Shown: piece by piece, positions 35,673 through 37,879 of the stretch | Layout: each line of letters begins with the position of its first letter | Position numbering within the stretch: position 1 is the first letter of the stretch | Assembly: GCF_000974985.2 (NCBI RefSeq) | Contig: NZ_LAVA02000005.1 | Location: 1 to 64,000 of the forward strand | DNA: 64,000 nt | Direction of reading: 5' to 3' | Source: Streptomyces mangrovisoli | GTDB lineage: Bacteria; Actinomycetota; Actinomycetes; Streptomycetales; Streptomycetaceae | Made by a program: the position numbers and the translations under genes | Notes under the pieces: generated by a model | Told to the model about the DNA's origin: nothing | Databases searched by the model: none | Seen by the model: the letters and a program-made list of their open reading frames with translations, nothing else

Positions 35673-35984
35673 TCACCACAGGTTGACGAAGTTGACGTGG
35701 ACGGTCTCGTTGCCCTGGTTGAGGGCGGTGAAGGCGGAGCCGTTGACCTGCGCGGTGTTGCTCTGGTTCGTGGCGCCGGCGCCGACCGCGTTCTGTTGTG
35801 TGGTGGACGAGTTGCCGCTGTTGTCGCGGCCGACGCCGCTGCCGACGACGCTCGCCACCCCCGCGTTCGATCCGTCGCCCGCGCCGGCGCCGCTGTCCGC
35901 CGCGGCGACGCCGGTGAAGAGCGCGGCGGCCAGCGGAAGGGCGGCTACGGCGGCGAGTACGCGAGCGGTACGGGTGCTTGCCAT
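35673..35984 (-). CDS. nepA: NepA-like small secreted spore cell-wall protein
   Basis: A 103-residue protein with a signal peptide (residues 1-31, ending GVAAA). The mature chain is rich in Gly, Ser, Asn, Thr and Gln with strands such as GATNQSNTAQVNGSAFTA and the end HVNFVNLW. It has no Cys. The start has AGGAGGAAG upstream. Composition, size and position fit NepA, an insoluble spore-wall protein under SigN in S. coelicolor, and a SigN-like gene lies at 4794. A clear GTTT/GGGTAT promoter is not visible upstream, so the assignment rests on resemblance from memory. Confidence 0.6.
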   Translation of the reverse strand: MASTRTARVLAAVAALPLAAALFTGVAAADSGAGAGDGSNAGVASVVGSGVGRDNSGNSSTTQQNAVGAGATNQSNTAQVNGSAFTALNQGNETVHVNFVNLW

Positions 35985-36309
35985 GGTGCTTCCTCCAGAA
36001 CCCGGCCCGGTGGCCGGCGGTACGTCAGGTGGGTCCTTGCGCCGGGCGGTCGGCCGACCGCCCGAGGTGTGGTGCACGACGTCGCGGGACCAGGCTGACC
36101 CGCGAAAACCCCGGCGAACCACCCCATCAGGGCTGATTCCCACTGAAGCGTGATGACAAGTCGATAAACCAGTTCACTATCCCTGGAACGGCCTGCTCAG
36201 GACAGTTCGGGCCGCCCTTACCAACGGGGGCGGGCGAGGAAGCGTTCCGGCAGATTTCCGGCAGACCGCACCGCCCTGGGCGAGTCGTCGCCGCACCCCC
36301 TTTCTTTAT

Positions 36310-36325
36310 TCGAACGCTCGTACGA
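36310..36325. promoter_or_regulatory. Candidate LexA (SOS) box
   Basis: TCGAACGCTCGTACGA matches the actinobacterial SOS consensus TCGAAC-N4-GTTCGA with one mismatch. It ends 10 bases before the primase-polymerase start codon, so bound LexA would block expression. The AT-rich TTTCTTTATT beside it may be part of the promoter. The other bases of the 35985-36335 gap show no gene. Confidence 0.5.
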
Positions 36326-36335
36326 AAATGGAGTC

Positions 36336-37214
36336 ATGGCCACCACAGACCGGCAGGCCACCACGCTGGCCCTCGCCCACGCACTGTCAGCCGCCGAACG
36401 CGGGCTGGCCGTCATCCCTCTGTCCCGGACCAAACTCCCGGCCCTGCGCTCGCCCCACCGAGACGACCCCGCGCCCGCGCCGATCTGCCACGGCGAATGC
36501 GGGCGCTTCGGGCACGGGGTCTACGACGCCTCGACCGACCCGGTGCGCATCCGCGCGCTGTTCGCCGCCGCACCCTGGGCCACCGGCTACGGCATCGCCT
36601 GCGGGCTGCCTCCGCACCACCTCATCGGCCTCGACCTGGACACCAAGGCGGACACGGACTCCTCGGCCGCGCTGCGCGAGCTGGCGCTGCGTCACTTGTT
36701 CACCATCCCGCCGACGGTCGTCGTGCTCACCCCGTCCGGCGGGCGCCACCTCTGGCTCACGGGCCCGGCCGAGGCGGTGATCCCCAACTCGGCCGGGCGG
36801 CTGGCCCCGGGCATCGACATCCGGGGCGCCGGCGGCTACCTGGTCGGCCCCGGCTCCCGCACCGACCACGGCGTCTACCGGACCGCCCCCGGCACGGCGC
36901 ACCTGGCGCCCGCCCCGTGCCCCCGCGCCCTGCTGCGCCTGCTGCTGCCGCCGCCCCGCAACCCCGACCACGCCCCGCCCGCTGGGGCGGCGGGCGAGCG
37001 GCACGGGCAGGGGCTCGTGCAGTTCGTACTGGCCGCGCACGAGGGGCAGCGCAACACCCGCCTGTTCTGGGCCGCGTGCCGGGCCTACGAGGACGGCATC
37101 GGCGCCGCCCTGGTCGAGCCGCTGGTCGAGGCGGCCCTCAACACGGGCCTGACGGAACGCGAGGCCCGCACCACGATCGCCTCGGCGGCCCGCCTGACCG
37201 GCCACCACCCCTGA
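36336..37214 (+). CDS. Bifunctional DNA primase/polymerase (Prim-Pol) domain protein
   Basis: A 292-residue protein of the archaeo-eukaryotic primase superfamily, the type that can both prime and extend DNA. IGLDLDTK holds the metal-binding Asp pair (about residue 100), GGRHLW the catalytic His, and GIDIRGAGGYLVGPGS the next conserved block with an Asp. The C-terminal helical part (about 220-292) resembles the PriCT linker. No helicase domain is attached, unlike phage or plasmid primases. It is chromosomal and next to a candidate LexA box, which points to damage-tolerance synthesis. ATG is close to GGAG. Confidence 0.85.
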   Translation: MATTDRQATTLALAHALSAAERGLAVIPLSRTKLPALRSPHRDDPAPAPICHGECGRFGHGVYDASTDPVRIRALFAAAPWATGYGIACGLPPHHLIGLDLDTKADTDSSAALRELALRHLFTIPPTVVVLTPSGGRHLWLTGPAEAVIPNSAGRLAPGIDIRGAGGYLVGPGSRTDHGVYRTAPGTAHLAPAPCPRALLRLLLPPPRNPDHAPPAGAAGERHGQGLVQFVLAAHEGQRNTRLFWAACRAYEDGIGAALVEPLVEAALNTGLTEREARTTIASAARLTGHHP

Positions 37215-37263: not shown

Positions 37264-37728
37264 ATGCACCACCGCCCCAGGGTGCGGACCACGTTCTCGA
37301 CCCTGACCCAGCTACTCCTCGCCTCCGACCGGACGATCGGCCTCACCGACCTGCGGTTCTGCGCCACGTACGGCGGGATCCCGCCCGGCTATCCCTGCAA
37401 ACCGGTCAACGACCTGCGGATCGAGTCCTTACTCCGCCACGCCGAACTCGCCCACCCCACGGCCCCGGTCCACCTGCTGCCGCCCCCACGGGAACACCCC
37501 GCCCTGTACTCCGGCGCCTCGGGCCCGGTGGAGGTCCTCCCCCCGATCGCCTGCACGGGAACCTTCCACTCCGCCCCACTGGACCCGTCCCACGACCCGT
37601 CCCTCTACCGCTCGACCCTGACGATCGTCTGGTTCCAGCACACCCCGACCCTCCCGACGGCCACCGGAACGGACCCACCCCTGCACACCGTCCCCTGGGA
37701 CCACCTGGCCCGGGACCGACGACTGTGA
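37264..37728 (+). CDS. Conserved-type protein of unknown function with a TTA codon
   Basis: A 154-residue protein 49 bases after the primase-polymerase gene. No recognised domain. Notable are YGGIPPGYPC (about 36-45) and a Thr/Pro-rich C-terminal half. Leu56 (in RIESLLRHAEL) is coded by TTA at 37429-37431, a codon read by the bldA tRNA in Streptomyces, so expression may depend on development. Codon usage is otherwise typical. The gene could be cotranscribed with the primase gene. Confidence 0.65.
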   Translation: MHHRPRVRTTFSTLTQLLLASDRTIGLTDLRFCATYGGIPPGYPCKPVNDLRIESLLRHAELAHPTAPVHLLPPPREHPALYSGASGPVEVLPPIACTGTFHSAPLDPSHDPSLYRSTLTIVWFQHTPTLPTATGTDPPLHTVPWDHLARDRRL

Positions 37729-37776: not shown

Positions 37777-37794
37777 TGCGCTTCGCTCATCACG

Positions 37795-37879
37795 CGGTGG
37801 GTGTGGGATTTGAACCCACGGTGACTCGCGCCACGACGGTTTTCAAGACCGTTCCCTTAGGCCGCTCGGGCAACCCACC
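37795..37879 (-). tRNA. tRNA-Ser(TGA)
   Basis: On the minus strand GGTGGGT pairs with ACCCACC, with discriminator G. Anticodon loop CTTGAAA gives TGA, with a long variable arm. Confidence 0.97.

Follow-up and report, generated by a model that had tools for sequence, protein, structure and literature searches.

A conserved LexA-type operator in the predicted promoter of a chromosomal primase-polymerase gene of Streptomyces

A study of the PrimPol-PV1 families links bacterial AEP primase-polymerases with PriCT-type C-termini almost exclusively to mobile elements, and describes PriCT domains as confined to the primases of such elements (PMC5862659). Mobile elements of actinobacteria carry Prim-Pol genes (PMC3218068). 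In the 64,000-nucleotide stretch of Streptomyces DNA analysed here (the window), a stand-alone Prim-Pol gene is preceded by a candidate SOS box. The locus raises the question of whether such an enzyme can belong to the host and be placed under its DNA damage response. The two features at issue are:

36310..36325, plus strand: LexA-type operator (SOS box) TCGAAC-GCTC-GTACGA, assigned by consensus match and kept upstream of 89 of 90 orthologues
36336..37214 (with stop), plus strand: stand-alone primase-polymerase of 292 aa, with a Prim-Pol domain (PF09250) and a C-terminal helical PriCT-1-like domain

A preliminary description of this DNA had placed the box at 36310-36325, one mismatch from the SOS box and in the start region of the Prim-Pol gene, and in each of these respects it was exact. 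The positions read TCGAACGCTCGTACGA, which differs from TCGAAC-N4-GTTCGA at one base, and 10 nt separate the operator from the ATG (36336) of the 292-aa Prim-Pol ORF. The count of one mismatch is right, and the mismatched half, GTACGA, is the conserved form of the box and is common to dnaE2 boxes. The site also agrees at every specified base with tCGAAC-N4-GNNCGa, the consensus from LexA ChIP-seq in S. venezuelae (PMC9380542). Taken singly, the match of TCGAACGCTCGTACGA is nevertheless no better than chance, and site counts lie near the control. The window holds three sites with at most two mismatches against 2.0 expected, a number reached by 32 of 100 shuffles; across the whole genome, places with one mismatch number 23 (13 for the reversed control) and sites of the looser TCGAAC-N4-GNNCGA number 48 (33 for the control). 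What makes the case for an SOS operator is comparative evidence, not the single site.

Of 150 Streptomyces genomes, 133 have a match to the protein; the gene is not essential, since the other 17 have none. The preliminary description had staked its candidate on conservation of the half-sites upstream of orthologues, and this is what was found in 89 of the 90 orthologues examined (the best listed hits whose 5′ end was usable, to the exclusion of partial ones) and in all 80 loci from named Streptomyces, two sets that overlap, so that their counts are not additive. Each of the 89 has a dyad with at least 10 of the 12 consensus bases, and 84 of them have 11; the exception, L105, has no box in its upstream DNA. 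Among the named loci, 79 carry exactly TCGAAC-N4-GTACGA and the eightieth (L311) carries TCGAACATGCATACGA, with 10 of the 12 bases. Alignment on the box was possible for 87 of the 90 regions: L105 is boxless, and L102 and L104 gave no match in the 160-nt scan, the box of L102 sitting 224 nt upstream of the hit start. In 86 of the 87 the ATG follows exactly 26 nt after the first base of the box. All twelve half-site columns are identical in 85–87 of the 87 regions, and the four spacer columns vary, with a leaning towards R-Y-N-Y. When the regions were thinned to 49 non-redundant ones (less than 50% flank identity), mean pairwise identity was 0.986 in the half-sites, 0.416 in the spacer, 0.674 in the near flank and 0.315 in the far flank. 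Conservation of this kind lifts the predicted operator far above chance and marks it as strongly constrained. A chance one-mismatch palindrome, conserved merely because its promoter is conserved, would fit the near-control site counts in window and genome, but we reject it with hardly a reservation, because invariant half-sites flank a variable spacer across the 87 regions (98.6% identity against 32% in the far flank) and the dyad is kept in a sister genus with a different promoter layout and is missing from paralogues.

The position of the box relative to the gene can be read with the base just ahead of the ATG numbered −1, and three promoter features are then predicted:

36301..36306, plus strand: predicted −35 element TTTCTT (TTCCCT-like consensus)
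36324..36329, plus strand: predicted −10 element GAAAAT (GANNNT)
36336, plus strand: predicted transcription start at the A of the start codon, from its spacing to the predicted −10 element

A T is present at −35 in 87 and at −34 in 86 of the 87 upstream regions; position −11 is A and position −7 is T in all 87. The two predicted elements are separated by 17 bases, and the operator, from −26 to −11, occupies this gap and the first two bases of the predicted −10 element, which overlaps its last two. This is the layout of a repressor that would exclude RNA polymerase from the predicted promoter. The mRNA is probably leaderless; the scarcity of SD-like 4-mers, found in just 23 of the 49 non-redundant upstream regions, agrees with a leaderless start without proving it. 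As background, this reading of the promoter draws on the general −10 consensus and on how often Streptomyces genes are leaderless. A separate conserved block, GAAGCGTTCC ... TTTCCGGCCAATC, lies about 75–100 nt upstream of the Prim-Pol ATG in many species (window positions ~36238-36262; L016-L045), and is possibly the promoter of the divergent gene.

The strongest single argument for a LexA-type operator comes from a second genus of the same family (g7), which may be Kitasatospora. All 14 orthologues there carry the dyad, as ACGAAC-N4-GTTCGA in twelve, GCGAAC-N4-GTTCGA in one and TCGAAC-N4-GTACGA in one. The right half is thus perfect (GTTCGA) in 13 of the 14 loci and the outermost left base is altered; the imperfection has changed sides and now sits at the outer base of the left half. 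Spacing to the ATG, surrounding sequence and promoter layout are all unlike those in Streptomyces, and the element that the genera have kept in common is the CGAAC-N4-GT(T/A)CG dyad, not the promoter.

We think it very likely that the Prim-Pol gene is under LexA control, and LexA itself is strongly supported as the protein that would occupy the operator. The half-site pair of the Prim-Pol box is also that of the S. venezuelae dnaE2-2 box, TCGAACGTCCGTAC, a LexA operator validated by SPR and among the more tightly bound (PMC9380542). Exact copies of TCGAAC-N4-GTACGA were found in 29 of 30 genomes, a few in each. Ten of 20 such sites fetched from places other than Prim-Pol genes lie directly upstream of a DnaE2-type gene (four identified by NCBIfam profile, the rest by ORF length and place), a figure that gives no unbiased rate, as the 20 were enriched for R-Y-N-Y spacers. 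The dnaE2 gene of the window's own genome carries TCGTACAGATGTTCGG and GGGAACTGATGTTCGA, and five of six dnaE2 genes in g7 have 11/12 boxes that bear a GTACGA/TCGTAC half. The boxes of lexA (TCGAACGTGTGTTTGG) and recA (TCGAACATCCATTCTT) in the window's genome both depart more from the symmetric consensus than that of Prim-Pol does, and neither has the GTACGA half. It might be supposed that the operator is real but is bound by another repressor, for instance a second LexA-like protein or one of the phage-type S24 group. The genome does encode a second full-length LexA-like protein (G000:C101:91966-92568, 223.8 bits), and conservation of the right half GTACGA is stricter than a symmetric consensus would call for. 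However, a second lexA match above the family cut-off is present in only three of 30 genomes whereas the operator is kept in nearly all, and the same dyad stands at dnaE2 promoters, the boxes of which are bound by LexA in S. venezuelae (PMC9380542). We therefore regard a repressor other than LexA as improbable.

The claim that this Prim-Pol gene is chromosomal and has no link to a plasmid or phage was borne out at the loci compared. The window neighbours tested are ordinary chromosomal genes with no integrase among them. Five syntenic Streptomyces loci (L414-L418) share these neighbours: genes for a PAS-domain sensor protein, an AMP-binding ligase and a sigma factor are present in all five, those for a thiolase and a MaoC-like protein in four, and those for an HtrA-like protease and GDPD in two, within the stretch taken. 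Searches of 19-kb stretches of these loci by tblastn gave no match to integrase, Tra or SpdB in any of the five, with the limit that the integrase and Tra queries were the proteins of one AICE, from which divergent ones may escape, and that the 750-aa Tra-like query has no Pfam hit itself. Two box-bearing loci from g7 (L412 and L413) are located elsewhere, and likewise gave no match to integrase, Tra or SpdB. Linkage of the box-bearing copy to a mobile element was thus seen neither at the window neighbours tested nor at L414-L418, and the surroundings expected of an AICE replication protein of the RepPP type, an element with integrase and Tra genes, were not found.

More distant relatives of the gene have a different setting. 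None of 20 AICE-type paralogues (~40% identity) has the box, the best match over the same 530 bases scanned being 9 of 12. Proximity to an integrase gene was checked for four of these, the copy in the window's own genome by Pfam and L419, L420 and L421 by tblastn; an integrase is nearby in all but L419. The own-genome copy, which lies beside a tyrosine integrase gene, is 40% identical to the 292-aa Prim-Pol. A closer, box-less sister group (L403-L411) is ~50% identical, and Tra- or integrase-like genes are found near L405, L408, L409 and L411, only at the edge for L407, and not near L403, L404, L406 or L410. No box was seen in another ten homologues (L247-L256), of which nine belong to other families in the class and one is a paralogue from the same genus, although their matches start at query residues 5–99 and some true starts may be further upstream. 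Among 20 divergent or second copies, the dyad is present in promoter context in ten (L370, L371, L373, L375-L378, L380-L382), as it is in L362; seven of the 20 have no dyad of at least 10/12, and L364, L369 and L372 have one of 10–11/12 that lies 150–309 nt upstream of the hit start, outside promoter context. In a tree of 45 sequences, a single branch (100/97) sets 23 box-bearing genes apart from the rest, with labels judged by hand such that L364, L369 and L372 count as lacking the box; labelling them as box-bearing breaks the single clade. The tree and the synteny fit one domestication with gain of the operator, but as the tree is unrooted, loss of the operator in the sister group would also be compatible.

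These relationships bear on whether the gene could be an AICE remnant, with a replication Prim-Pol that the SOS response would switch on to let the element multiply in a host under threat. The Prim-Pol genes carried by AICEs (PMC3218068), the ties of AEP-PriCT proteins to mobile elements (PMC5862659), the tyrosine integrase adjoining the paralogue in the same genome and the tRNA-Ser gene downstream in the window would all suit such an origin. We nevertheless give this explanation little credence, as all five of L414-L418 lack an integrase- or Tra-like gene and share chromosomal neighbours, and as none of the 20 element-type paralogues has the box. Vertical inheritance is the best reading for the box-bearing Prim-Pol, which was probably domesticated from a mobile-element Prim-Pol of the AICE type.

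The protein itself is a clear member of the Prim-Pol family, with 128.5 bits against a Pfam cut-off of 22.8 for PF09250 (E 4e-37). PriCT-1 (PF08708) is matched weakly, at 18.1 bits under a cut-off of 21.1, and the protein is not assigned to that family, but a helical C-terminal domain is seen in the AlphaFold model (mean pLDDT 92.2). Residues D100, D102, H138 and D161 do not vary among 30 sequences, and we take them to be the catalytic residues of motif I (DxD; D100/D102), motif II (H138) and motif III (D161). The top structural match in the PDB is ORF904 of pRN1, for both 3m1m (Z 12.8, rmsd 3.5 over 160 residues) and 9aam (Z 12.5, rmsd 5.7 over 237 residues, including the C-terminal helices), and a sequence search of the PDB matched ORF904 weakly (E 0.0058). 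Lower scores were obtained for the NrS-1 phage Prim-Pol (Z 7.8), the LigD PolDom (2fao, 7.6) and Prim-PolC (5op0, 6.9). There is no helicase in the 292-aa protein. Because the modelled fold is like that of ORF904 and a helicase is lacking, the protein resembles a minimal primase, an AEP catalytic domain joined to a helix bundle for template binding, much as in the functional part of ORF904.

Sequence alone cannot tell a primase from a polymerase or a gap-filling enzyme. Given LexA control, repriming or gap synthesis under damage is a probable role; the label ‘translesion enzyme’, also offered in the preliminary description, is a guess. LexA on the operator would block RNA polymerase at the Prim-Pol promoter. 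RecA on single-stranded DNA would then bring about self-cleavage of LexA, and Prim-Pol would be switched on together with recA, lexA and dnaE2. At stalled or collapsed forks the enzyme would most likely synthesise short primers on the exposed ssDNA, or extend gapped ends there, which would let replication resume past the lesion and leave the gap to DnaE2 or recombination. A different possibility is that the SOS-controlled enzyme is chiefly a polymerase for gap filling or end processing, in the manner of mycobacterial Prim-PolC and the LigD PolDom. It shares the AEP fold with both (5op0, Z 6.9; 2fao, Z 7.6), and Prim-PolC performs short-gap repair (PMC7442782). Against this, ORF904 is clearly the better match, helix bundle included (Z 12.5 over 237 residues), and none of the seven window neighbours tested is a ligase or Ku gene. 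A mainly gap-filling or end-processing function consequently seems unlikely to us. We consider it likely, on the comparative data, that the gene encodes a core-genome Prim-Pol, repressed by LexA and induced by damage, which reprimes or extends gaps at stalled forks and whose probable ancestor was an AICE-type Prim-Pol.

Several known systems resemble parts of this arrangement. In regulation the resemblance is to the LexA regulon of S. venezuelae (Stratton et al., 2022; PMC9380542), dnaE2-dinP in particular, which shares the genus and the TCGAAC-N4-GTACGA operator type and also encodes DNA synthesis on damaged templates, but the product here is an AEP primase-polymerase and not a Y- or C-family polymerase. 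The main text of that study does not name the Prim-Pol gene, and the word ‘primase’ is absent from it; the gene may be listed unremarked in the supplementary tables. The AICE Prim-Pols (SLP1 SCO4617, RepPP/RepAM modules; PMC3218068) belong to the same Pfam family, PF09250, whereas the window gene is syntenic, core-chromosomal and preceded by a LexA operator, and the mobile-type copies are boxless. ORF904 of pRN1 (3m1m, 1rni, 9aam) has the same Prim-Pol domain and C-terminal helix bundle (Z 12.4–12.8), at 15–19% identity over aligned residues, but it comes from an archaeal plasmid rather than a bacterial chromosome and has the helicase domain that the window protein lacks. Mycobacterial Prim-PolC, also an actinobacterial chromosomal repair polymerase with the AEP fold, is a weaker structural match (Z 6.9) and is tied to LigC, and LexA control is not described for it in the parts of the literature consulted. 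With eukaryotic PrimPol the likeness is one of analogy only, in the suggested repriming after fork stalling. No report linking LexA with a Prim-Pol gene of this kind was found in the literature covered, a scope that leaves out most subscription journals and supplementary tables.

A copy that is genus-wide, syntenic and LexA-controlled would, if these readings hold, be a host gene, and a new enzyme class would join the SOS response. It would also let damage-induced repriming by a dedicated primase be tested directly in a bacterium that is amenable to genetics. More tentatively, and with somewhat less than even confidence, we suggest that Streptomyces and its sister genus possess a bacterial equivalent of the eukaryotic PrimPol. 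This enzyme would have been domesticated once from a mobile element and, with a LexA operator placed exactly inside a leaderless promoter, would provide inducible repriming that restarts chromosome replication past damage, beside the error-prone DnaE2.

Three further features adjoin the gene in the window:

37264..37728, plus strand: 154-aa ORF that lies 49 nt beyond the stop codon of Prim-Pol and has no match in Pfam or NCBIfam
35673-35983, minus strand: divergent gene for a small protein that looks secreted; 27 of 30 orthologous loci have a match to it
37794-37879, minus strand: tRNA-Ser gene (tga) on the downstream side of Prim-Pol; among 32 scanned loci, six have it, counting that of the window

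The 154-aa ORF is present in 15 of 30 orthologous loci, the window counted, and may be an operon partner that is co-transcribed with Prim-Pol and hence SOS-controlled too.
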